DNA of 64,000 bases from the NCBI GenBank assembly GCA_028751875.1, contig CM054165.1:28998781-29062780 (forward strand). The letters are read 5' to 3'. The translations under genes were made by a program, and so were the position numbers. This document shows, piece by piece, positions 13,625 to 49,892 of the stretch. The first letter of the stretch is position 1. Each line of letters opens with the position of its first letter. The notes beneath the pieces were generated by a model. It was given only the letters and a program-made list of their open reading frames with translations. It had not been told where the DNA came from and ran no database searches. Origin of the DNA: Rapana venosa. Its lineage: Eukaryota > Mollusca > Gastropoda > Neogastropoda > Muricidae.

Positions 13625-13910
13625 AGGTAAAGGTGTCCCATAACCTATGTGGTCACAGGGGAGCAAGACATCAAGAGACCTCAGCTTCTCCAGGGTCTCC
13701 CTCGCCGCTTTACCTACCTTGACCCTAAAGAGGGCAGGTACTCATTTACAGCTGGGTGAACCGGGTGACAGTAATGAAACCAAGGCGTGCAACAGTATAG
13801 CCACCATCAACTTGATATGTATCCCCGAAGTCGGAATGCGGCTAGCTACCCTCATGACGGGCAAAATCGGTCACACAAGCAAAATCTCTAGCCGAGGGGG
13901 GAAAAAAACA
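13625..13910 (-). mobile_element. SINE-5S (partial) joined to SINE-C 3' end
   Basis: 13625-13795 matches the 3' half of the tRNA/5S chimeric SINE described at 27205-27502 ('accctaaagagggcaggta'), with its promoter end lost. From about 13815 it continues into a forward SINE-C 3' fragment ('gaagtcggaatgcggctag'). Confidence 0.6.
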
Positions 13911-15079: not shown

Positions 15080-16535
15080 GCCTCACGCGACGTCACGACC
15101 AGCAGCAGACAGCACTCGCAGCCGCATTCCAAACACTCCCGCTCCTCCTCCTCCTCCAGCTCCGTGTCGCCCCCGAGGGCCAAGGACGTCAAGGCCAAGG
15201 TCAAGGGCAAGGCCAAGAAGAAGAGCGCCGGGCGGGCAAGGGGGAGAGCGACTCGGACGAATCGCACACCACCAAGTCCAAGAAGTGGCTGTCCCCGCTG
15301 AAGAAGACCCTCAAGCTGAAGAAGGCCAAGGCCAGCAGCGTCTCGGGCGACCCCAAGCTGGAGGAAGGAGGAGGCCGCCTCAAGCAGCGGTCGGCTTCGC
15401 CCAAAGCCGGGCGGCGCGGGGACCGGCGAGAGCTGCTGGGGGACGAGCCGTTGCTGCTGCCCCCGCGGTCGCACGAGTCGCGCAAAGAGGCGGAGGTGGC
15501 GGCGGCGACGGCGCGGTCTCGGGGCCGCAGTTCGGAGAAGCGGGAGAAGAAGATGATGACGACGACGATGATGAAAGGCAGGCAGTCGGGATCCCAATCC
15601 CCGGCCCCACAGCTGGACCGAAGCCGCAGCGCCAAGCGCGGGGACAGCAGCCGCGACGCTTCGTTCGGCCGCAAAGGCAGGCAGTCGGAGTCGCCTCCCT
15701 TGCCCACGGACCGCAGCAGCAGCGGCAGGAGAGGAGGAGGGGGAGGAGACGGTGGTGGTGGCCGGGATTTGTCCGTCGACCGCCGCAAACTGGAGCCGCG
15801 AGGGGAGAGCAGGAAGGGGGGTGGGGAGGAGCGGGGGAAACGGCCCCCTTCCCCCCCTTCCCTGTCCAGCAGGCCGTCGGAGATGTACTCCCCTTCCCAG
15901 CTGGACCGAGACTCCCCGACCCGGGAGTCGTCCCAGCGCCAGCCCCCCCCAGCCCCCAGAGGGCGCCAGGCGGAGCGCGACCCCCCGCGCGATGACGAGA
16001 GGCGCTGGCGGCGGGGGCCAGGAGCGCGAGGGGCGGGGCCGGGGAGGAGACAAGTTCGAGTCCCGCAGCAGCTCCTCGGCTTCGTTGGATCGAAGCGGGG
16101 CGGAGAGGTTCGGCCGTCGTGGTGGTGGCGGTGGTGACGGGGGTGACAGCTTTGACCAGTACGGGCCGGACCGCGGGCAGTTTGACGCTGACCGCAACCG
16201 CTGGGACTATCGGGACGGTCGCGGGACGGACGCCGGAGGGGGAGGAGGAGGAGGAGACCGTGAGCCGCGAGGTCGCAGCAGGGGAGACCACTTTGAGAGG
16301 GGACTGGCCCCCCCGCCGCCACCCCCGCCCCCACCGCGAGAGCAGGCGAGGGGCGAGGGCTTGGGGCGCGAGGCTCCTTTCGACCGCTCGGACAGCCTGC
16401 GCGGCTCCGGGGGTCGTGACGGGCGCGACCTCTCCAGGGACAACGAAGGGCGCGAGCGGGGGCGAGATGGGGGCCGGGACAGGGGAGACAACCGGGGTAG
16501 AGACCGGGATGGACGTGGTGGAGCTTTGGTTGAAG
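15080..16535 (+). CDS. ZC3H13: ZC3H13 large exon c (SR/RD-rich), two frame breaks
   Basis: GC-rich exon of 1456 nt after 'acgttccag', ending at 'TTGGTTGAAGgtgaggg'. The protein is low complexity: ASRDVTTSSRQHSQPHSKHS, then SKKWLSPLKKTLKLKKAKAS, then Arg/Asp/Gly/Pro-rich sequence to DRGDNRGRDRDGRGG. Read directly, the frame shifts near 15235 (one base apparently missing) and near 16000 (one base extra or two missing). Codon character continues smoothly across both points, so assembly error is more likely than mutation. The exon leaves in phase 1, matching the next exon. This is the disordered RS/RD-like middle of ZC3H13; no folded domain is visible. Confidence 0.75.
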
Positions 16536-18770: not shown

Positions 18771-20309
18771 GTCGCATGTATCGTGACGACGGGCGAGAGG
18801 GCTCTGATCGCCGAGGAAGGGAGGTAATTCCAGAAGGTCGTCCATCTCTGGAAGGAGGTCGCATGGACCGACCCGACAGCCGAGGGGACAGGAGCGACAG
18901 TCGCATGGACAGAGACGGTCGCTTGGACAGAGACGGTCGTATGGAAAGAGGAGACAGTCGCTTGGACAGAGGAGACAGTCGAGGTGAAGGTCGCATGGAC
19001 CGCGGCGATGGCCGCCTGGAAAGGGGAGACAGTCGTGGCGACCGAGGTCTGGCCCGCGGCGAGGGACGCCTGGACAGGCTGGACAGGGGGGACAACCGCT
19101 TGGACAGGGGAGACAACGCGATGGAGCACCACCGCGGGGAGCCCCCAGGCCCGCCTGTGGATCAGCGGGGCTTCCGCCAAGGTCGCGGGATGGGGTCGGG
19201 CCCTGGCGACAGTCGTGGCGCCCTGAGGGGCGGGGGGAGTCGGGGCAGCCCCGGAGAGAGCCGCGGCTTCGACTTTGACCGGCGCGGGGAGGCAGCAGCG
19301 GGGGGCAGGATGGACAGAGACCTGACCGGCCTGGGCCAGCTTCCTCCGCCCAGAGACCGCTTCCTGCCCGGCCCGGAGTTCAGGAGGGAGGAACCCCCCC
19401 CGGGTTTCCGTGACGGCGTCCCAGATCGCCGCGGCGACGACCGCTTCATCGGCCCGGACGGCATCGAACTCCCGCCCCGAGGGGACCGCCGCTTCGAGGA
19501 CGTGCGCGACGACCGGTTGCCGGGCCGGGGCCCTGGAGAGGATCGGCCGGGGCGGGAGAGGATGCTGGCACACCGCGGGGGCCACTTCGACTTTGGCCGC
19601 GGGCCAGGTCCCGACGTACGGCCGCCGCCACACCACCACCACCACCACCAGACCTGCTGCCCAACCAGAGGCGAGGCCCGCTCCTGCCCACGCCCATGGA
19701 GGAACCCCTGCGCTGCGGGGAGCGGGGAGAGACCTTCGAGCGGGAACCGCCCCGCGGGGGTCGCGACAGCTCGCGGGGTCGACGAGAGCAGCGCGACGCT
19801 GCCGCTGCCGCCGCCGATTTTGGGCCGGAGCTGGGCCGAGGAGGGCGGGACCCTCCCCCTCCCCGCGAGGCCATGAGGGACCCCCCCACCGCTGCTGCTG
19901 CTGCTGCTGCCACTGCCTGGGACCGCGACAAAGACCGGAGGCTGGGCGGGCGTGACGGAGGACCCAGGGACCCGGCGGCTGGTCGGCGCGGAGGCTTCGC
20001 CGCCCCTGGGGAAGACTTCCCGCCTCCGGAGGGCGACCGGAAGCGACGGGACCGAGAGCGCAGCCCCCGACGTGACAGAGGAGGAGGAGGAGGAGACCGC
20101 GCCAGTCCCGCCCTGGACAAGAAGGAGGGGGGAGAGGGGGGGGGGAAGGACGCCAGCGATGCCCGCAGCACGCGCTCGGCCGACGACGTTCGAGAGCTGG
20201 CCGGTCAGCGGGGGAAGGAAGGAGAGGGGTCGGGTGGTGGAGGAGGTGGTGGTGGACCGGGCGTGGTGAAGGGGGTGAGGGACCGGGACTCTCGCTCTGA
20301 CGGGAAGAG
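18771..20309 (+). CDS. ZC3H13: ZC3H13 large exon d (RD/DR repeats), one frame break
   Basis: 1539-nt exon. The acceptor is taken as 'atgttgaag' because GT then completes the split Gly codon of exon c; this acceptor has a weak pyrimidine tract, and an earlier start is possible because upstream codons read DRYVEG in frame. It encodes RMYRDDGREGSDRRGRE and many tandem D/R/G units (MDRDGRLDRDGR, DSRLDRGDSRGEGR), then proline/glycine-rich sequence. Near 19640, inside a CAC/CCA tract, the frame shifts by one base to continue as PDLLPNQRRGPLLPTPMEEP and DRKRRDRERSPRRDRGGGG. The donor is 'GGGAAGAGgtgagt', leaving in phase 2. The tandem RD/DR pattern mirrors the Arg/Asp/Glu repeats of vertebrate ZC3H13. 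Confidence 0.77.
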
Positions 20310-22262: not shown

Positions 22263-22953
22263 CTCACCAAACCACTCTAACCAACAATGGGACTTGCCCA
22301 GGTCCCCAGACCGATCCCAAGACAAAGGGGACTCCTCCCTGCCTTTCTCCGGCCGCCGACAACCTCTCCGGGCGCGCTCGCTCTCCCCGAAACAGCGCAG
22401 CAAGTCCAGCGGAGGGGGAGGCGACTCCGGCCGCTCTCCAGGCCGACGCCGCTCCCCGGGCCGTCGCCCGGGCGACCACGCCTCCTCCCCGGCCTCCCGC
22501 TCCACCCAGGGTGGCGGGGGCAGCAGGTCGCGCACCCCGGTGGGCACCAAGCGCAAGCTGGAGGAAGGCCTGCGCTCGCCCCGGGGCAAGGACGACACCA
22601 AGTCGCCGGTGGCCAAGCGGCCGCGGGAGGAGTCCAAGTCGCCGGCGCGTAAAGGCAGCCGCCACCCGTCGCCGGCCGGCTCCCACCACAGCCGCGGCAG
22701 CCACAGCAGCGAGAGGCGTCGCCGGCCTGGCCTGACCCAGCGGGAGCCCGAGAGCCGTTTCTTCGGCTCGGGCGGTGCGTCCTCCCACGACCGGGACAGC
22801 CCGGCCCGCCGAGAGCGGGACAGGGAGCGGGACAGAGAGCGGGACAGGGAGCGGGACAGGGACAGCCCGGCCTGGAGGGACGGGGAGAAGGACAGCCCTG
22901 CCCGCAGAGACCGAGACAGAGAGCGGGAGAGAGACCGAGACACCAAGGTGGAG
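22263..22953 (+). CDS. ZC3H13: ZC3H13 exon e (SR-like, RD/RE repeats)
   Basis: 691-nt exon bounded by 'ataccacag' and 'AAGGTGGAGgtgagtg'. One base completes the split codon left by exon d, and the exon ends in phase 0. It encodes SPNHSNQQWDLPRSPDRSQD, a Ser/Arg/Pro stretch (RRSPGRRPGDHASSPASRS), VGTKRKLEEGLRSPRGKDD with Lys-Ser-Pro sites, and a terminal RERDRERD run. The sequence is uninterrupted here. A damaged second copy lies at 25614-26291. Confidence 0.85.
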
Positions 22954-22974
22954 GTGAGTGAGGTTGGCTGAGGT

Positions 22975-23195
22975 GACGTCGTTTATTTATTCTTTTATAT
23001 CGAGGATAATGGAATAAGCACTCATGGGCTTTTTTACATCCAGTCCCCGTGTGTATGCGGTTTTGTAAATTTTTGTCATCTGTTTCCACTGGCACACAAA
23101 AGCCTACTCTTCCGAAAAGCGGAACAGGATTTAGCAAGATGTTCTGCATGCGTTCGAACACGGGGCCTCGGTTTATAGTCTCCTCCGAAGGGTTG
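22975..23195 (-). mobile_element. SINE-A, 5'-truncated
   Basis: Reverse SINE-A body and tail starting 'tttatttattcttttat', with 'cggggcctcggtttatagtc' at the inner end. The same insertion recurs at 26313-26535. Confidence 0.8.
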
Positions 23196-23369
23196 GGAGT
23201 GTATGTATGGTTGTTTTTTTTCTTCTGTTCCTCGGCTAGAGCTCTGCGGTTCAAACGATGGTGAGGTTTTTGCGTATGCAGCCATTTTTCTCCCCACTAT
23301 TTAGATAGCTGCATTGTGACTTGGGGATAGTGTCTAAATATGACACCTGTGTGTTCATGGGTTTAAAAA

Positions 23370-23860
23370 AAAAATTTTTTTGTCATGAATCTATTCCTAC
23401 AGGTATGGATGGCCTTCTCTTCCGGAAAGGCGGAACAGGTTCAGATGTTCTGTGTGCAATAGCACACAGGTCCTTGGTTTATAGTCTCATCTGAAGGACT
23501 TTGGCATTCAGTGTCATTTTCTCATAAAATTGGGAAGAAAGGGCGAGACTGGGAATCAAACGTAGAACCTCACTGTGTACTTGTTTGGCAGGTGAATGTC
23601 TTAACCATCCTGCCACCTTCCTTATTTAATGTCCTTCAGATGAGACTGTAAACCGATGTCTTGTGTGTGGACACACGCAAAACATCTTGCACACACATTA
23701 AAACCCATTCCGCTTTTTGGTAGAGTAGGCCATTGTGTGCCGGTGGGAACGGATGACAAAATTATTTTTAAAATGCATACACCGGGGTACTGGATGTAAA
23801 AAAGCAATAAGTGTTTATTGCATTATCCTCGAAATAAAAGAACAAATAAATAAATATATG
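23370..23860. mobile_element. SINE-A' (reverse) abutting SINE-A fragment (forward)
   Basis: 23370-23622 is a reverse SINE-A' with its head at the right ('taaccatcctgccacc'). 23630-23860 is a forward 5'-truncated SINE-A ('tccttcagatgagactg' to an AAATAAATAA tail). The same pair recurs at 26700-27195. Confidence 0.75.
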
Positions 23861-25613: not shown

Positions 25614-26291
25614 TCACCAAACCACTCTAACCAACAATGGGACTTGCCAGGTCCCCAGACCGACCCCAAGACAAAGGGGACTCCTCCTGCCTTTCTCCGG
25701 CCGCCGACAACTCTCCGGGCGCGCTCGCTCTCCCCGAAACAGCGCAGCAAGTCCAGCGGAGGGGGGGAGGCGACTCCGGCCGCTCTCCAGGCCGACGCCG
25801 CTCCCGGGCCGTCGCCCGGGCGACCACGCCTCCTCCCCGGCCTCCCGCTCCACCAGGGTGGCGGTGGGCAGCAGGTCGCGCACCCCGGTGGGCACCAAGC
25901 GCAAGCTGGAGGAAGGCCTGCGCTCGCCGCGGGGCAAGGACGACACCAAGTCGCCGGTGGCCAAGCGGCCGGGGAGGAGTCCAAGTCGCCGGCGCGTAAA
26001 GGCAGCCGCCACCGTCGCCGGCCGGCTCCCACCACAGCCGCGGCAGCCACAGCAGCGAGAGGCGTCGCCGGCCTGGCCTGACCAGCGGGAGCCGGAGAGC
26101 CGTTTCTTCGGCTCGGGCGGTGCGTCGTCCACGACCGGGACAGCCCGGCCCGCGAGAGCGGGACAGGGAGCGGGACAGAGAGCGGGACAGGGAGGGGACA
26201 GGGACAGCCGGCCTGGAGGGACGGGGAGAAGGACAGCCCGCCGCAGAGACGAGACAGAGAGCGGGAGAGAGACCGAGACACCAAGGTGGAG
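25614..26291 (+). pseudogene. ZC3H13: Damaged second copy of ZC3H13 exon e
   Basis: Aligns end to end with 22263-22953 but is 678 rather than 691 nt. At least a dozen one-base indels scatter the frame over all three frames, for example 'acttgccagg' against 'acttgcccagg' and 'gacaactctcc' against 'gacaacctctcc'. Splice-site bases on both sides survive. As written it cannot encode the exon's protein. An assembly artefact (an unpolished read or a misplaced alternative haplotype) explains this better than a real pseudo-exon, because damage drops sharply just after the exon. Confidence 0.75.
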
Positions 26292-27200
26292 GTGAGTGAG
26301 GTTGGCTGAGGTGACGTCGTTTATTTATTCTTTTATATCGAGGATAATGGAATAAAGCACTCATGGGCTTTTTTACATCCAGTCCCCGTGTGTATGCGGT
26401 TTTGTAAATTTTTGTCATCTGTTTCCACTGGCACACAAAAGCCTACTCTTCCGAAAAGCGGAACAGGATTTAGCAAGATGTTCTGCATGCGTTCGAACAC
26501 GGGGCCTCGGTTTATAGTCTCCTCCGAAGGGTTGGGAGTGTATGTATGGTTGTTTTTTTTCTTCTGTTCCTCGGCTAGAGCTCTGCGGTTCAAACGATGG
26601 TGAGGTTTTTGCGTATGCAGCCGTTTTTCTCCCCACTAGATAGCTGCATTGTGACTTGGGGATAGTGTCTAAATATGACACCTGTGTGTGCATGGGTTTA
26701 AAAAAAAAAATTTTTTGTCATGAATCTATTCCTACAGGTATGGATGGCCTTCTCTTCCGGAAAGGCAGAACAGGTTCAGATGTTCTGTGTGCAATAGCAC
26801 ACAGGTCCTTGGTTTATAGTCTCATCTGAAGGACTTTGGCATTCAGTGTCATTTTGGCATTCAGTGTCATTTTCTTATCAAATTGGGAAGAAAGGGTGGG
26901 GCTGGGAATCGAACCCAGAAATTTTGCAGTGTACTTGTTTGGCAGGTGAATGTCTTAACCATCCTGCCACCTTCTTTAATGTCCTTCAGATGAGACTATA
27001 AACTGAGGTCTTGTGTGTGAACACATGCAGAACATCTTGCACACATGTTAAAACCCATTCTGCTGTTTGGAAGAGTAGGCCATTGTGTGCCGGTAGGAAC
27101 GGATGACAAAATTATTTTTAAAATGCATACACCGGGGTACAGGATGTAAAAAAGCAATAAGTGTTTATTGCATTATCCTCGAAATAAAAGAATAATATAT
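26292..27200. repeat. High-identity second copy of 22954-23870
   Basis: Repeats the SINE-A, unique spacer and SINE-A'/SINE-A pair of 22954-23870, with only a few differences such as a duplicated 'ggcattcagtgtcatttt' at 26840-26870. Here the copies are clean, unlike the preceding 2.4 kb. Confidence 0.85.
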
Positions 27201-27204
27201 ATGT

Positions 27205-27502
27205 AAAGTAAAGGTAAAGGAGTCCCATAACCTATAAGGTTGTAGGGGACCGAGGCGTCAGAGACCTCACTTCTCTAGGGCCAGCATATTGAGGGCGGCG
27301 CCCATCTCCTCTCCCTAGCTGCTTTACCTTCCCTGACCCTAAAGAGGGCAGGTACCCATTTACAGCTGGGTGAACTGGGGGAACTGTACTGAAGCCAAGG
27401 CGCGCAAACGGTCACCCATCCAACTGGTAACCACGCTCGACGCTGCTTAACTTGGCTGGGGGAAAGCGAGTGCTCCGACCACTGAGCTATCCCGTCCCCT
27501 TA
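27205..27502 (-). mobile_element. SINE-5S: chimeric tRNA/5S rRNA SINE, full-length
   Basis: Read on the reverse strand, the element starts GGGGACGGGATAGCTCAGTG with a textbook tRNA A-box (TAGCTCAGTGGTCGGAGC). It then passes into a segment very like the promoter half of 5S rRNA: AGTTAAGCAGCGTCGAGCG and GTTGGATGGGTGACCG, compared with the 5S box A and box C strings AGCTAAGCAGGGTCGGGCC and TTGGATGGGAGACCG. A unique body and 'cctttaccttta'-type end follow. No tRNA B-box is seen. Further copies are at 13625-13795 (partial), 38620-38922, 48183-48467 (reverse) and 56205-56462 (forward). Confidence 0.78.
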
Positions 27503-38619: not shown

Positions 38620-38922
38620 CTAAGGGTAAAGGTGTCCCTTAACCTATGTGGTCGTAGAGGAGCGAGGCGTCAGAGACCTCAGCTTCTCTAGGGGCCACCA
38701 TATTGAGGGCGGTGGCGCCCATCTCCTCTCCCTCGCTGCTTTACCTTCCCTGACCCTAAAGAGGGCAGGTACCCACTTACAGCTGGGTGAGCTTGGGGGA
38801 CTGTACTGAAGCCAAGGCACGCAAACAGTCACCCATCCAAGTGGTAACCACGCTCGATGCTGCTTAACCTTGGCTGGGGGAAAGCGAGTGCTCTGACCAC
38901 TGAGCTACCCCGTCCCCTATTT
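38620..38922 (-). mobile_element. SINE-5S chimeric SINE
   Basis: Full-length reverse copy. The promoter end reads, in reverse, GGGGACGGGGTAGCTCAGTG, and the 5S-like part includes the complement of 'cacccatccaagtggtaacc'. It lies 42 bp upstream of the exon at 38964. Confidence 0.78.
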
Positions 38923-43338: not shown

Positions 43339-43514
43339 CACTGGGCCCTGGACCCTTGACTGAGTTCTGCTGTATTTTGCGCGCTGTGATATGACAGATT
43401 CGTCATTCTGTTTGTGTGGGTTGGTCGGTTGGGTTGGTGGCCTTCAATTTTACGTCTGTTAACAAAAAAGTGATGTTAGTGTATGTATGCGTGCATGTGT
43501 GTGTGTGTGTGCAG

Positions 43515-43709
43515 ACATCGTCAGTGTGCTGGACATAGACTGGGCCAGCCTGGCCAAGCAGCCCATTCCCAAGCAGAACACGGGCTCCCTCCTCAAGCGC
43601 TTCCACCCGGCCAGCGTCTTCCGTCGCATCGGCGTGTCTCGCAGCCTGGCCGGCCAGTCCTTGTTCGAGAAGATCGAGGCCATCTGCAAAGAAGGCCTGG
43701 CTGTGGACG
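43515..43709 (+). CDS. ZC3H13: ZC3H13 exon l (conserved C-terminal domain, first half)
   Basis: 195-nt exon between 'tgtgtgtgcag' and 'GTGGACGgtgcgt', phase 1 in and out. It encodes (N)IVSVLDIDWASLAKQPIPK, QNTGSLLKRFHPASVFRRIG and VSRSLAGQSLFEKIEAICKE. Human ZC3H13 has VIDVDWSGL, LLKFTPGAVMLRVGISKKLA and GSELFAKVKE in the same order, which makes this the strongest family evidence. The domain is conserved in animals; in ZC3H13/Flacc the non-zinc-finger part mediates contacts within the m6A writer complex. Confidence 0.92.
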
Positions 43710-43754
43710 GTGCGTGTGGGTTGTGGGTTTTTGGAGTGGAGTGCAGTGTAGACC

Positions 43755-44891: not shown

Positions 44892-44977
44892 ACAGCAAGG
44901 ATAACGGCAAGGAGAAGGAGAACATGGAGCAGGCAGCAGAAGTTAACATCGTTAATTATCATTGGTTGTATGTGTAA
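44892..44977 (+). pseudogene. ZC3H13: Partial copy 1 of the exon at 45582, with acceptor
   Basis: After an intact 'tctgtatacag' acceptor, the exon start is copied and encodes (D)SKDNGKEKENMEQAAE in the same phase. At 44942 it passes into LINE tail sequence ('gttaacatcgttaattatc'), which adds VNIVNYHWLYV and a stop at 44975-44977. If used, it would give ZC3H13 a short alternative C-terminus lacking the last conserved block. Use is not shown by sequence alone. Confidence 0.65.
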
Positions 44978-45081
44978 GAATATGTTGAATGCTAGTGCTT
45001 TGATTCATTTTCACAAGATACAGCGCTATATAAATTCCATTCATCATCATTATTATTATTACTACTACTGTCTGCATACAG

Positions 45082-45161
45082 ACGGCAAGGAGAAGGACAA
45101 GGAGACCGTGGAGCAGGCAGCAGAAGTTAACATCGTTAATTATCATTGGTTGTCTGTGTAA
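45082..45161 (+). pseudogene. ZC3H13: Partial copy 2 of the exon at 45582, with acceptor
   Basis: Same structure as copy 1: acceptor 'tctgcatacag', (D)GKEKDKETVEQAAE, then LINE-derived VNIVNYHWLSV and a stop at 45159-45161. It is preceded by the LINE tail 'gcgctatataaattccattc' and an ATT/ACT repeat. Confidence 0.65.
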
Positions 45162-45252
45162 GAATATGCTTTGATTCGTTTTCACAAGATACAGTGCTAT
45201 ATAAATTCCATTCATTATTATTATCATTATTACTACTAATTTCTTCATGCAG

Positions 45253-45338
45253 ACGGCAAGGATAACGGCAAGGACAAGGAGAATGTGGAACAGGCAGCAG
45301 ACGTTAACATCGTTAATTATCATAGTGTATTATTGTAG
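45253..45338 (+). pseudogene. ZC3H13: Partial copy 3 of the exon at 45582, with acceptor
   Basis: Acceptor 'cttcatgcag', (D)GKDNGKDKENVEQAAD, then VNIVNYHSVLL and a stop at 45336-45338. The exonic part is in frame. The tail has lost part of the LINE sequence. Confidence 0.65.
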
Positions 45339-45419
45339 TGTATTTTTTGATTCGTTTTCACAAGATATAGCGCTATATAAATTCCATTCATTATTACTAC
45401 TACTAATGTCTTCATGCAG

Positions 45420-45493
45420 ACGGGAAGGACAAGGAGAACGTGGAGCGGGCAGCAGACATTAACGTCGTTAATTATCATTGGTTGTATGTGTAA
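45420..45493 (+). pseudogene. ZC3H13: Partial copy 4 of the exon at 45582, with acceptor
   Basis: Acceptor 'cttcatgcag', (D)GKDKENVERAAD, then INVVNYHWLYV and a stop at 45491-45493. Spacing between acceptors falls from 190 to 171, 167 and 162 bp toward the true exon. Confidence 0.65.
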
Positions 45494-45581
45494 GAATACG
45501 CTTTGATTCGTTTTCACAAGATATAGCGCTACATAAATTCCATTCATCATCATCATTACTACTATTACTCTCTGCATGCAG

Positions 45582-45856
45582 ACGGCAAGGAGAACGGCAA
45601 GGAGAAGGACAAGGAGAAGGCCGTGGACCAGGCATCCAACACCTCTGCGGCCCAAGGCGGGGTGGGGGTGGTGGTGGGGAGGCGGCAGAGGAAGGTGGAC
45701 ACGAGGCTGCTGGTGGACGTGCCGGTGCTGCACATGGCGGCGGTCAGGCAGAAGCGGGAGCGGGCCAACCTGCTGCACAACCTGGGCCCCTTCCGCCGCG
45801 CCCTCTGCGCCCGCCGCGACCTGGAGATCCGCAGACAGCTGTGCAAAGTGGACAAG
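45582..45856 (+). CDS. ZC3H13: ZC3H13 exon m (conserved C-terminal domain, second half)
   Basis: 275-nt exon between 'tctgcatgcag' and 'GTGGACAAGgtagaa', phase 1 in and phase 0 out. It encodes (D)GKENGKEKDKEKAVDQASN, a Gly/Val spacer, KVDTRLLVDVPVLHMAAVRQ, KRERANLLHNLGPFRRALCA and RRDLEIRRQLCKVDK. Human ZC3H13 has LNMAALLRKEERASLLSNLG and RRDSAIRKQL at the same place, so this is clearly the functional copy. Its 5' end is duplicated four times upstream, and its 3' border about 27 times downstream. Confidence 0.92.
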
Positions 45857-47372
45857 GTAGAATGGGCACAGGGGGGGGGGGATCCGCCGACAGCTGTGCA
45901 AAGTGGACAAGGTAGTCATGGGCACGGGGGGGGGGATCCGCCGACAGCTGTGCAAAGTGGACAAGGTAGGAATGGGCACAGGGGGGGGGGATCCGCCGAC
46001 AGCTGTGCAAAGTGGACAAGGTAGTCAATGGGCACGGGGGGGGGGATCCGCCGACAGCTGTGCAAAGGGGACAAGGTAGGAATGGGCACAGGGGGGGGGG
46101 GATCCGCCGACAGCTGTGCAAAGTGGACAAGGTAGTCATGGGCACGGGGGGGGGATCCGCCGACAGCTGTGCAAAGTGGACAAGGTAGGAATGGGCACAG
46201 GGGGGGGGATCCGCCGACAGCTGTGCAAAGTGGACAAGGTAGTCATGGGCACGGGGGGGGGATCCGCCGACAGCTGTGCAAAGTGGACAAGGTAGGAATG
46301 GGCACAGGGGGGGGGATCCGCCGACAGCTGTGCAAAGTGGACAAGGTAGTCATGGGCACAGGGGGGGGGGGATCCGCCGACAGCTGTGCAAAGTGGACAA
46401 GGTAGTCATGGGCACAGGGGGGGGGGGATCCGCCGACAGCTGTGCAAAGTGGACAAGGTAGTCATGGGCACGGGGGGGGGGGGAGGATCCGCTGACAGCT
46501 GTGCAAAGTGGACAAGGTAGTCATGGTCACAGGGGGGGGGGGATCCGCCGACAGCTGTGCAAAGTGGACAAGGTAGTCATGGTCACAGGGGGGGAGATCC
46601 GCCGACAGCTGTGCAAAGTGGACAAGGTAGTCATGGTCACAGGGGGGGGGGGATCCGCCGACAGCTGTGCAAAGTGGACAAGGTAGTCATGGTCACAGGG
46701 GGGGGGGGGGGATCCGCCGACAGCTGTGCAAAGTGGACAAGGTAGTCATGGTCACAGGGGGGGGGGGATCCGCCGACAGCTGTGCAAAGTGGACAAGGTA
46801 GTCATGGTCACAGGGGGGGGGGATCCGCCGACAGCTGTGCAAAGTGGACAAGGTAGGAATGGTCACAGGGGGGGGGGATCCGCCGACAGCTGTGCAAAGT
46901 GGACAAGGTAGTCATGGTCACAGGGGGGGGGATCCGCCGACAGCTGTGCAAAGTGGACATGGTAGTCATGGTCACAGGGGGGGGGGGATCCGCCGACAGC
47001 TGTGTAAAGTGGACAAGGTAGTCATGGTCACAGGGGGGGGGGATCCGCCGACAGCTGTGCAAAGTGGACATGGTAGTCATGGTCACAGGGGGGGGGGGGG
47101 ATCTCGCCGACAGCTGTGTAAAGTGGACAGGTAGTCATGGTCACAGGGGGGGGGGGATCCGCCGACAGCTGTGCAAAGTGGACAAGGTAGTCATGGTCAC
47201 AGGGGGGGGGGATCCGCCGACAGCTGTGCAAAGTGGACAAGGTAGTCATGGTCACAGGGGGGGGGGGATCCGCCGACAGCTGTGCAAAGTGGACAAGGTA
47301 GTCATGGTCACAGGGGGGGGGGGATCCGCCGACAGCTGTGCAAAGTGGACAAGGTAGGAATGGTCATGGGGG
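45857..47372 (+). repeat. 55-bp minisatellite made of the exon m 3' border and 5' splice site
   Basis: About 27 tandem units. Each contains 'gatccgccgacagctgtgc' and 'aaagtggacaag', corresponding to the last bases of exon m (ATCCGCAGACAGCTGTGC...), then the splice donor 'gtagtcatg' or 'gtaggaatg', and a run of 7-13 G. Early units read 'gggcac' and later ones 'ggtcac', so two subtypes are arranged in order. Every unit keeps the AAG/GTAG junction except rare variants such as 'gacaggtag' near 47130. Frames through it are repeat translations. Confidence 0.93.
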
Positions 47373-47377
47373 GGGGG

Positions 47378-48076
47378 GGGTTTTTTGCTTGTAGAAACAT
47401 CCTAGTGAACAGTACCACACCGACCACTCCCACCAGCATCAAGATGAGTGGCGAGACACTAGAGGAGGTAGAAACTTTCAAGTACCTTGGAGCAGTCATC
47501 ACCAAAGAAGGTACGAGCACACAAGAGGTGAAGATCAGACTTGCTGTGGCACTCTCCTCCATGACTAAGCTGGTGAAAGTGTGGAGAAACCACATCAGAA
47601 CCCACACTAAGGTCAGACTCTACAAGGCACTCGTCACATCCATTGCCTTGTACAGCTGTGAAGCATGGACACTTACTGCCGATTTAGAACGTCGCATTCA
47701 AGCCTTTGAGTTGAAGTGCCTCAGGCGGATCCTGAACATCACCTACAGAGACCGCAAAACCAATGACTACGTCTGGCAGCAGATCGAGGCACTGGCTGGC
47801 AAACAAGAACCATTGCTAGATACAGTCAAACGGAGGAAACTGAAGTGGTTTGGCCACACAACAAGGCATAACAGCCTGTCAAAGACAGTCCTGCAGGGAA
47901 TGGTGGAAGGAGCAAGGAGGCAGGGACGACCACGCAAAAGCTGGATATCCAACATCAAGGAGTGGACCGGCCTCACTGTACCAAACCTCCTGAAAACAGC
48001 CCAGGACAGAACCATTTGGCGGTCCACTTGCAGCGTCCGTGTGGGTACCCCAACGGTCGTCCCGACCAAGGGATGA
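47378..48076 (+). mobile_element. LINE reverse transcriptase C-terminal remnant
   Basis: An uninterrupted frame encodes EEVETFKYLGAVITKEGTST, VRLYKALVTSIALYSCEAWT, ERRIQAFELKCLRRILNITY, RRKLKWFGHTTRHNSLSKTV and GARRQGRPRKSWISNIKEWT, ending PTVVPTKG and TGA. This is the thumb and C-terminal part of a non-LTR endonuclease/reverse transcriptase. It starts directly after the G-run of the minisatellite; the catalytic core is missing. The frame is intact over 230 codons, implying a fairly young insertion. Confidence 0.85.
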
Positions 48077-48182
48077 ATGAGTGAGTGAGTGAGTGAGAGA
48101 GAAGTTGTAGTGTATGTTTGTCCGTCGTGTCCGACGATGACCTCCAAAACAGCAGAGGAGGCAGCTGCTGTTTTGGAAAAGG

Positions 48183-48467
48183 TAAAGGAAAGGTAAAGGA
48201 GTCCCATAACCTATAAGGTCGTAGGGGAGCGAGGCGTCAGAGACCTCACTTCTCTAGGGCCAGCATATTGAGGGCGGCGCCCATCTCCTCTCCCTCGCTG
48301 CTTTACCTTCCCTGACCCTAAAGAGGGTCGGTACCCATTTACAGCTGGGGGAACTGTACTGAAGCCAAGGCGCGCAAACGGTCACCCATCCAACTGGTAA
48401 CCACGCTCGACGCTGCTTAACTTGGCTGGGGGAAAGCGAGTGCTCCGACCACTGAGCTATCCCGTGT
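48183..48467 (-). mobile_element. SINE-5S chimeric SINE
   Basis: Reverse copy from 'aaaggagtcccataacc' to 'ccactgagctatcccgt', with 5S-like and tRNA-like parts intact. Confidence 0.78.
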
Positions 48468-48789
48468 TTTGGAAACTGGGCAGAAATTTGATTATAGTGG
48501 AGATGCCTTGCCCGCAGTACATCCCCCACTCTCTCGGCCAAGTGGGCGTAAGGACAGTCAGCGTTGGAGATGCTCTCCAAAGGCCAACCAGCCCCCAGGG
48601 CTGCAGCACATAAGGACTGTGCGAGTCAAGCCTCCTAGTCAGAGAGTCCTAGTCGATCACTAAAGACTAAGCTGTAAAGTGGAATTCCATGAGTGGGAAA
48701 GAAAGCCACTGGTCATACAGCCTCTCACTTTGCTGTTGCCCCCAGCGTCAATGGTTTAATCAAGAACTGTGATAAAGCCCAGGCGCTGA
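48468..48789. other. Intron; possible LINE leftovers
   Basis: Resumes unique sequence after the SINE ('gttttggaaactgggcag'). The words 'gttttggaaa' occur on both sides of the SINE (48169 and 48466), as a target-site duplication would. No exon is seen. Confidence 0.5.
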
Positions 48790-49180
48790 CGGCATAGTTG
48801 TAGTGTAGTGTTGTTTGTAGTGTAGTGTGTTGTGTTGTGTTGTAGTGTGTTGTGTTGTAGTGTAGTGTGGTGTAGTGTGCTGTGGTGTAGGGTGGTGTGT
48901 TGTGGTGTAGTGTGTGGTGTGTTGTAGTGTAGTGTGTTGTGGTGTAGGGTAGTGTGTTGTGTTGTAGGGTAGTGTGTTGTGTAGTGTGTTGTGGTGTAGT
49001 GTAGTGTGGTGTGTTGTAATGTGTTGTGTTGTAGTGTGGTGTAGTGTAGTGTGTTGTGTTGTAGTGTGTTGTGTTATAGTGTAGTGTGGTGTGTTGTAGT
49101 GTGGTGTGGTGTAGTGTGTTGTGTTGTAGTGTAGTGTGGTGTGGTGTGGTGTGTTATATTGTCTTGTCTTGTATACCACG
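48790..49180. repeat. TGTAGTG/TGTTG low-complexity tract
   Basis: About 390 bp of shuffled 'tgtagtg', 'tgttgtgt' and 'gtggtgt' words. Confidence 0.9.
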
Positions 49181-49435
49181 TCGGTGGGGGGTCTTGCTTG
49201 TAGAGAGAAATTGTATTGTATTGTATACTATGTCGGTGAGTCTTGCTTGTAGAGAGAAGTTGTGTTGTGTTATATTGTGTTGTGTTGTATTGTATTGTAT
49301 ACTATGTCGGTGGGTCTTGCTTGTAGAGAGAAGTTGTGTTGTGTTGTGTTGTCTTGTATTGTATTGTATACTATGTCGGTGGGTCTTGCTTGTAGAGAAA
49401 AGTTGTGTTGTGTTGTATTGTATACCATTTATCAT
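49176..49435. repeat. About 65-bp tandem repeat, four units
   Basis: Units share 'tatgtcggtgggtcttgctt' and 'gtagagagaagttgtgttg', with TTGTA tracts of changing length. A reverse SINE-B fragment follows at 49432-49480. Confidence 0.88.
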
Positions 49436-49748
49436 GGCAGATTTCTCTGCGTGAAATTCAGGCTGCTCTCCCCCTGGGACTTATTTTTGCGATAAAGAAT
49501 TTGACTTGGTTGTTTTTTTTCACAGTAAAGAATTTGACTTGTTTTTGCTATAAAGAATTCGACTTTTAGTTGCAGTCAAGAATTTGACTGAACTTGTTTT
49601 TGCGATCATAAAGGATTTGACTTGTTGCTGGCCAAAACAAGAGCAAGAGGGTGAACTAAGGACATGACCAATATTTTCTTCTTCTTCTGCTTTTTCTCCT
49701 TCTTTTTTTGTCATGTGTGTGAATTGTGTGTGTGTGTGTGTGTGTCAG

Positions 49749-49892
49749 GTGTACGAGCAGCCTGCAGTGTTCCCCACTCAAGTGATGGACACAGACCTGT
49801 GCAAACTGAGCATGCAGCTGTTCCGACAGGGCCGCGACTTTGTGGAGCGCAAGGACTCCGAGTGTGACAGCAAAATAGAGCTGAGCATTTGA
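49749..49892 (+). CDS. ZC3H13: ZC3H13 terminal coding exon
   Basis: After a TG tract and 'gtgtgtcag', the exon enters in phase 0, as left by exon m. It encodes 47 residues: VYEQPAVFPTQVMDTDLCKL, SMQLFRQGRDFVERKDSECD and SKIELSI, then TGA at 49890-49892. Human ZC3H13 ends its conserved domain with VDNELLRLSLRLFKRK, matching MDTDLCKLSMQLFRQG. The 3' UTR extends into AC- and AT-rich DNA. No polyadenylation site could be fixed; AATAAA hexamers occur only further away, for example near 52826. Confidence 0.88.
   Translation: MYEQPAVFPTQVMDTDLCKLSMQLFRQGRDFVERKDSECDSKIELSI

Follow-up and report, generated by a model that had tools for sequence, protein, structure and literature searches.

A splice-donor minisatellite at the edge of the penultimate coding exon of ZC3H13 in the gastropod Rapana venosa

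The 3' end of the penultimate coding exon of ZC3H13 in Rapana venosa, together with its splice donor, is repeated in tandem into the last intron of the gene as a minisatellite of 28 units, which confirms the splice-donor minisatellite reported at the edge of exon 45582-45856 in the initial annotation. A further amplification, absent from that annotation, affects the 5' edge of this exon. We regard it as probable that the array is a young, near-neutral minisatellite in which the exon's own donor (donor 0) is still the main donor and the downstream copies are decoys that are rarely used. The window is the whole stretch of 64 kb that was analyzed (28998781-29062780 of its contig; positions below count from its first base), and genome searches were made over the 2.28-Gb assembly of 2004 contigs.

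Gene identity and exon layout

ZC3H13 is a component of the m6A writer, a helper in RNA methylation. The exons at about 43515 and 45582 encode peptides that matched the PDB chain 7vf2_B, "Zinc finger CCCH domain-containing protein 13", at an E-value of 4.5e-19 (query 1-64 and 106-153 on chain residues 388-452 and 460-507). The C-terminal query detected 22 homologues at E <= 0.01, several of them named ZC3H13, and the closest homologue found was a protein of the neogastropod Babylonia areolata (P0001; 79% identity over 87% of the query). When P0001 was aligned to the window by tblastn, the match was collinear exon by exon, with the last three coding exons in order at 43514-43711, 45581-45859 and 49752-49889. 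The match to the PDB chain and the exon-by-exon alignment uphold the gene name given initially. The C-terminal peptide had no Pfam match up to an E-value of 1, and scans of the window for tRNAs and for Rfam families (gathering threshold) found nothing. The exons and intron at the 3' end of the gene are as follows.

43515-43709, + strand: preceding ZC3H13 exon (containing IVSVLDIDWASLAKQP), donor ACG followed by GTGCGT, matched by 7vf2_B and P0001
45582-45856, + strand: penultimate coding exon ("exon m"), start phase 1, end phase 0, ending in LEIRRQLCKVDK; 68.8% identity to P0001 residues 1515-1597 (tblastn match at 45581-45859)
45857-49748, + strand: last intron, 3892 bp, donor AAG followed by GTAGAA, acceptor TGTGTCAG followed by GTGTAC
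49749-49892, + strand: terminal coding exon (VYEQPAVFPTQVMDTDLCKLSMQLFRQGRDFVERKDSECDSKIELSI, then stop); 93.5% identity to P0001 residues 1598-1643 (tblastn)

The terminal exon was found by listing every downstream frame; a regular expression for a vertebrate-like last exon had missed it. Since its start is fixed at 49749, the last intron runs from 45857, the first base after the exon 45582-45856, to 49748, and the array therefore occupies the 5' end of this intron. The junction across the intron, KVDK joined to VYEQPAVFPT, is common to the orthologues.

Anatomy of the donor array

The array and its parts are listed here.

45826-47379, + strand: minisatellite of 28 units, each with the exon end (31 nt), a GTAG donor, a short spacer and a G-run (7-14 G)
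45836-45890, + strand: unit 0, the real exon edge with its donor and the first G-run
45891-46324, + strand: units 1-8, alternating TCA(A)TGGGCACGG and GAATGGGCACAG types, a dimeric higher-order repeat (unit table)
46325-47379, + strand: units 9-27, of which 16 of 19 are TCATGG(G/T)CACAG monomers, the exceptions being units 11, 18 and 27 (unit table)

TRF reported the array with a period of 56 (28.0 copies, 93% matches, score 2591) and also with a period of 225 (7.0 copies, score 2607). Decomposition at the in-unit CAG gave unit 0, which is the exon edge itself, and 27 downstream units, in agreement with the exon edge, donor and about 27 extra copies described before. Each unit consists of 31 nt of exon end (GATCCGC, then C or A, then GACAGCTGTGCAAAGTGGACAAG), GTAG, a spacer of about 10 bases and a single G-run; the GTAG donor is present in 28 of 28 units, unit 0 included, and so is the G-run, as had been claimed (28/28, 7-14 G). 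Units 0-26 are 53-59 bp long, 22 of these 27 with lengths that are not multiples of three and the other five with 54 bp, and unit 27 is cut off at its G-run by the end of the array. The stretch from the in-unit CAG to GTAG measures 18 nt in 27 of the 28 units and 17 nt in one.

The units are near-identical, and donor 0 is the donor of the exon itself. The exon-derived 31 nt equal the consensus in 21 of the 27 downstream units (units 4, 12, 20, 21, 22 and 23 deviate), and unit 0 differs from the consensus by a single synonymous base (AGA/CGA). That every unit keeps CTGTGCAAAGTGGACAAG followed by GTAG is true to the letter for unit 0 and 22 of the 27 downstream units, but not for units 4, 20, 21, 22 and 23. 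This exact 22-mer occurs 23 times in the 2.28-Gb assembly, always at the ZC3H13 locus, and its reversed control pattern had no match in the same 2.28 Gb; the array is confined to a single locus. The succession of a dimer block (units 1-8) and a monomer block (16 of 19 units) is as in ordinary minisatellite growth.

Amplification of the acceptor side

The 5' edge of the exon has been multiplied as well.

44892-45581, + strand: upstream array with four extra copies of the exon acceptor and the first ~40-50 nt of the exon (TRF, alignment)

The first exon-like bases of the four copies are at 44892, 45082, 45253 and 45420, and each copy is joined to a 3' tail that looks retroposon-like by eye. TRF reported 44996-45606 with a period of 171 (3.6 copies, 79% matches). 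A genome search recovered, among the best candidates that it scored, the exon itself plus three of its four upstream copies, and only at this locus. With four upstream acceptors, the exon's own acceptor and 28 donor units, this is therefore one exon with five acceptor and 28 donor copies. The acceptors of the upstream copies have pyrimidine shares of 0.65-0.70. These copies were considered as usable exons and rejected, reading on from them reaching a stop in four of four; the sequences between them hold no donor that reaches -6 kcal/mol.

The region that follows the donor array contains an open reading frame which we take to be retrotransposon reverse-transcriptase-like.

47395-48076, + strand: reverse-transcriptase-like C-terminal ORF fragment of a retrotransposon (by eye), directly after the array and behind TTTTTTGCTTGTAG

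Its only Pfam match was DUF6451 (E 0.059), below the cut-off of that family. At 47361-47395 a G-run is followed by the acceptor-like TTTTTTGCTTGTAG, with a pyrimidine share of 0.45 over 20 nt; this site opens a 57-codon frame in the fragment and could serve a possible alternative last exon.

Repeat density of the window

Minisatellites were counted at a period of at least 10, at least three copies and at least 150 bp. The window (64 kb) holds 13 such arrays covering 8876 bp, or 13.9% of its length. The genome sample, 143,342 non-N bases out of 200,000 fetched, holds nine (4.0 per 64 kb, 3.9% of bases), and minisatellite density over 1-64000 is about three times that of these sampled stretches of the same genome. 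Ten exon edges were checked and two lay inside arrays, both of them edges of exon 45582-45856; one or two would be expected by chance. As a control, 20 of 139 kinase-domain matches in the same genome were sampled, with match ends as a proxy for exon ends and one match with 281 N. None of the 20 was overlapped by an array (period at least 10, at least three copies), and nine had an array within 400 bp. Because none of these 20 exons was overlapped, it is not routine for both edges of a single exon to lie in an array. The arrangement is uncommon, but no special cause is needed.

Other repeats were seen in the window. An interspersed repeat of about 290 bp, SINE-like by eye, is present at 48182-48465, 27203-27495, 38622-38913 and, in reverse, 56461-56203, with a weaker further copy at 13625-13792. 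A ZC3H13 exon block and an adjoining 63-bp array occur as a doubled block that looks like an unpolished false duplication.

Reliability of the assembled array

We regard an assembly artefact, in the array as such or in its copy number, as improbable. The doubled block does lend this explanation some support: the gene block is present twice (22280-23400 and 25621-26740), and an alignment of the two copies shows 19 mismatches and 17 gap events, with alignment ends accounting for two of the latter. At 11 of the 17 gaps the second copy (25621-26740) lacks one C, a pattern that resembles unpolished long-read sequence. The coding frame also changes relative to Babylonia within 15187-15232 and within 19621-19651, probably through consensus indels at short runs. 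Against an artefact stands the ordered inner structure of the array, a dimer block followed by a monomer block with its own variants, which would be hard to obtain from a false join. The array is also 1.55 kb long, within the span of long reads, if such reads were used.

The donor that serves the gene

Forty-seven proteins were fetched for comparison. A spliced junction after KVDK or its equivalent was found in 17, a V (GTN) stood straight after the K, as expected of read-through into the intron, in 24, which are not 24 independent loci because some are near-duplicates, and the motif was missing in six. The second intron codon of the read-throughs varies (S, W, V, G, C, I, K, M, R, N), and a second copy of the KVDK motif was found in none of the 47. 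Since 17 of the 47 share the spliced junction and 24 read into V, the position of the donor is old, and the conserved tail depends on donor 0. Protein conservation of this kind argues for predominant use of donor 0 in R. venosa.

The predicted products of the array donors were obtained by joining each donor to the terminal exon. As assembled, only donor 0 gives the canonical tail, and none of the 27 downstream donors does. Donors 1-3 give shifted but open tails. For donors 4-27, including the eight whose extension is divisible by three, a stop falls within the array, 54-1332 nt ahead of the junction. These predicted frames are unreliable, as the lengths of the G-runs are not trustworthy in the assembly. 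A search of the protein collection with array-encoded peptides (83 candidates) gave no match at E <= 0.01.

Donor strength was expressed as the RNA duplex energy with the 5' end of U1. Donor 0 (GTAGAA) has a value of -6.5 kcal/mol compared to -14.0 kcal/mol for the consensus, and the downstream donors range from -4.8 to -9.2 kcal/mol. Units with GTAGTC have -6.3 kcal/mol after AAG, -4.8 after ATG (two units) and -7.8 after CAG (one unit), and the six GTAGGA units (2, 4, 6, 8, 18 and 27) have -9.2 kcal/mol, stronger than donor 0. Donor 0 is at the weak end yet not alone, the four other ZC3H13 donors in the window having -12.7, -9.6, -6.4 and -6.9 kcal/mol. The rest of the intron has 296 other GT sites, of which 23 reach the value of donor 0, 25 that of the GTAGTC units and only one that of the GTAGGA units. 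Because donor 0 is weak and the GTAGGA units pair better with U1, competition by the decoys is plausible.

Selection that keeps the donors was considered and is unsupported. No GTAG change was seen in the 27 downstream units (27 x 4 nt); the exon part has eight changes in 27 x 31 sites. The intact GTAG is not evidence of selection, because only about one GTAG change would be expected at the rate of the exon part. Buffering or modulation of splicing by the array is possible.

Use of the array donors, as in human IFI6, would mean that the spliceosome takes donor 0 and the next few donors and so produces a set of C-terminal tails or, through stop codons, reduces how much functional protein is made, with copy number and G-run lengths tuning the ratio. 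We consider this unlikely, although it is the main alternative and has several points in its favor. Array donors are reported to be used in human IFI6 (Turri et al., 1995), the effect of poly-G runs on splicing reportedly depends on the strength of the site (Xiao et al., 2009), and G-quadruplex motifs are reported to be enriched near splice junctions (PMC9065059). At this locus, donors 1-3 give open frames with new tails as assembled, and the GTAGGA donors (6 of 27) exceed donor 0 and all but one of the 296 other intronic GT sites. However, 22 of the 27 units have a length that is not divisible by three, donors 4-27 leave their stops upstream of the junction, and the tail at stake is conserved among the molluscs fetched. 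The peptide search found no protein of the predicted kind, and the frames themselves are uncertain with the assembled G-run lengths.

Micro-exons

The initial annotation also suggested that each unit could be spliced in as an in-frame micro-exon of 18 nt (LCKVDK), so that the number of insertions would vary. The 18-nt core between CAG and GTAG in 27 of 28 units is in keeping with this, and introns as short as 43 and 49 nt, atypical and G-rich, have been reported in human genes (PMC8363638). The introns from unit to unit would be only 35-41 nt, shorter than these human cases, and the pyrimidine share before the AG of the downstream units averages 0.27 compared to 0.50-0.70 at four genuine ZC3H13 acceptors, two of which were placed one base off. 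Among 191 background AGs the pyrimidine share averages 0.45, and 8.9% are at or below 0.27. By intron length (35-41 nt) and acceptor quality (mean pyrimidine share 0.27), the units fall short of what micro-exons would need. The six codons have changed from V to G in one unit and from K to M in two, with a one-base deletion in one and a synonymous change (TGC to TGT) in two; missense changes and a deletion alongside a synonymous change do not suggest coding selection on the sequence, and the repeated motif was absent from all 47 fetched proteins. The suggestion is unsupported in view of the short introns, the purine-rich acceptors, the coding changes and the 22 of 27 unit lengths that are indivisible by three. 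Micro-exons are very unlikely, with barely any weight left to them, rather than impossible, because of the short human introns mentioned above (43 and 49 nt; PMC8363638). New introns inside the array are unlikely; the last intron itself is old, its junction being common to orthologues.

Origin of the array

The reading that we prefer, a young and near-neutral array of decoy donors, would begin with a tandem duplication that joined a poly-G tract at the start of the last intron to a position in the exon 31 nt before its end. The ends of units 11 and 13, GGAGGATCC and GGGAGATCC, are close to the exon's own CTGGAGATCC and point to a G-rich junction. Slippage or unequal exchange, in which the G-runs probably assisted, may then have multiplied the unit of exon end, donor and G-run to about 28 copies. 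Folding of a 204-nt piece with quadruplexes allowed uses one of the G-runs (-89.6 compared to -83.6 kcal/mol, a prediction only), and by such predicted folding the G-tracts, 28 runs of 7-14 G, are able to form G-quadruplexes. The pre-mRNA would still be spliced mainly at donor 0, with the 27 copies as intact, mostly weak decoys that are used rarely or never and whose products would mostly be frame-shifted or stop-containing mRNA. We infer the youth of the array, the role of G-runs in its amplification, the predominance of donor 0 and near neutrality from this combination of features.

Comparison with known systems

The human IFI6 (6-16) repeat unit is short and in frame. Keeping of frame by downstream donors, which may be typical of IFI6, was not seen in ZC3H13, where 0 of 27 canonical tails were obtained as assembled. 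The minisatellite of IFI6 supplies several splice donors (Turri, Cuin & Porter, 1995, Nucleic Acids Res 23:1854), and its downstream repeats are reported to be used, giving three mRNAs (Turri et al., 1995; also cited in PMC2572611). With this reported human precedent, a donor-bearing minisatellite is a known kind. As in splice-donor minisatellites of the IFI6 type, the tandem units of ZC3H13 start in the exon and each has a GT donor (28/28 GTAG). Unlike IFI6, the units are mostly not multiples of three and each has a G7-14 run, the acceptor side of the exon is repeated too, and the donors are known from sequence alone. The mostly out-of-frame units, the long G-run in each and the repeated acceptor side are what differs from IFI6. 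A literature search for ZC3H13 with minisatellite found no paper.

Other systems share single features with the locus, as far as the accessible portions of the respective reports go. In potato RdRp, an intron was gained by tandem duplication across an intron-exon boundary (PMC4974935), and there, as here, duplicating an exon/intron boundary copies real splice signals. The potato duplication is on the acceptor side and its new splicing was confirmed by RNA, whereas ZC3H13 has 27 donor-side copies seen in sequence; the upstream acceptor copies of ZC3H13 come closer to the potato case. In yeast, G-quadruplexes make G-rich minisatellites such as CEB1 unstable (PMC2673046; PMC5491262). The ZC3H13 units likewise carry G-runs on one strand, but no splice site is involved in CEB1 as described in those portions. 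An intronic VNTR of ABCA7 is reported to affect splicing (PMC5954066); the ZC3H13 array is an intronic repeat too, and the units of the ABCA7 VNTR are not described there with splice donors.

Implications

With both splice sites amplified (five acceptors, 28 donors), the exon could conceivably be a hypermutable module whose repeat number and G-run length determine how much of the mRNA is productive, and with it the dose or the tail of an m6A-writer subunit, differently between individuals, a speculative reading to which we give little credence. The array extends donor-bearing minisatellites beyond human, to an exon with its acceptor side repeated too. It is a natural experiment in which the spliceosome chooses one donor among 28 that are near-identical, each followed by a G-run, in a conserved gene. 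If donor 0 is used faithfully, this would argue for strong rules of position or exon context; if it is not, the C-terminus or the dose of a component of the m6A writer would be under the control of a minisatellite.
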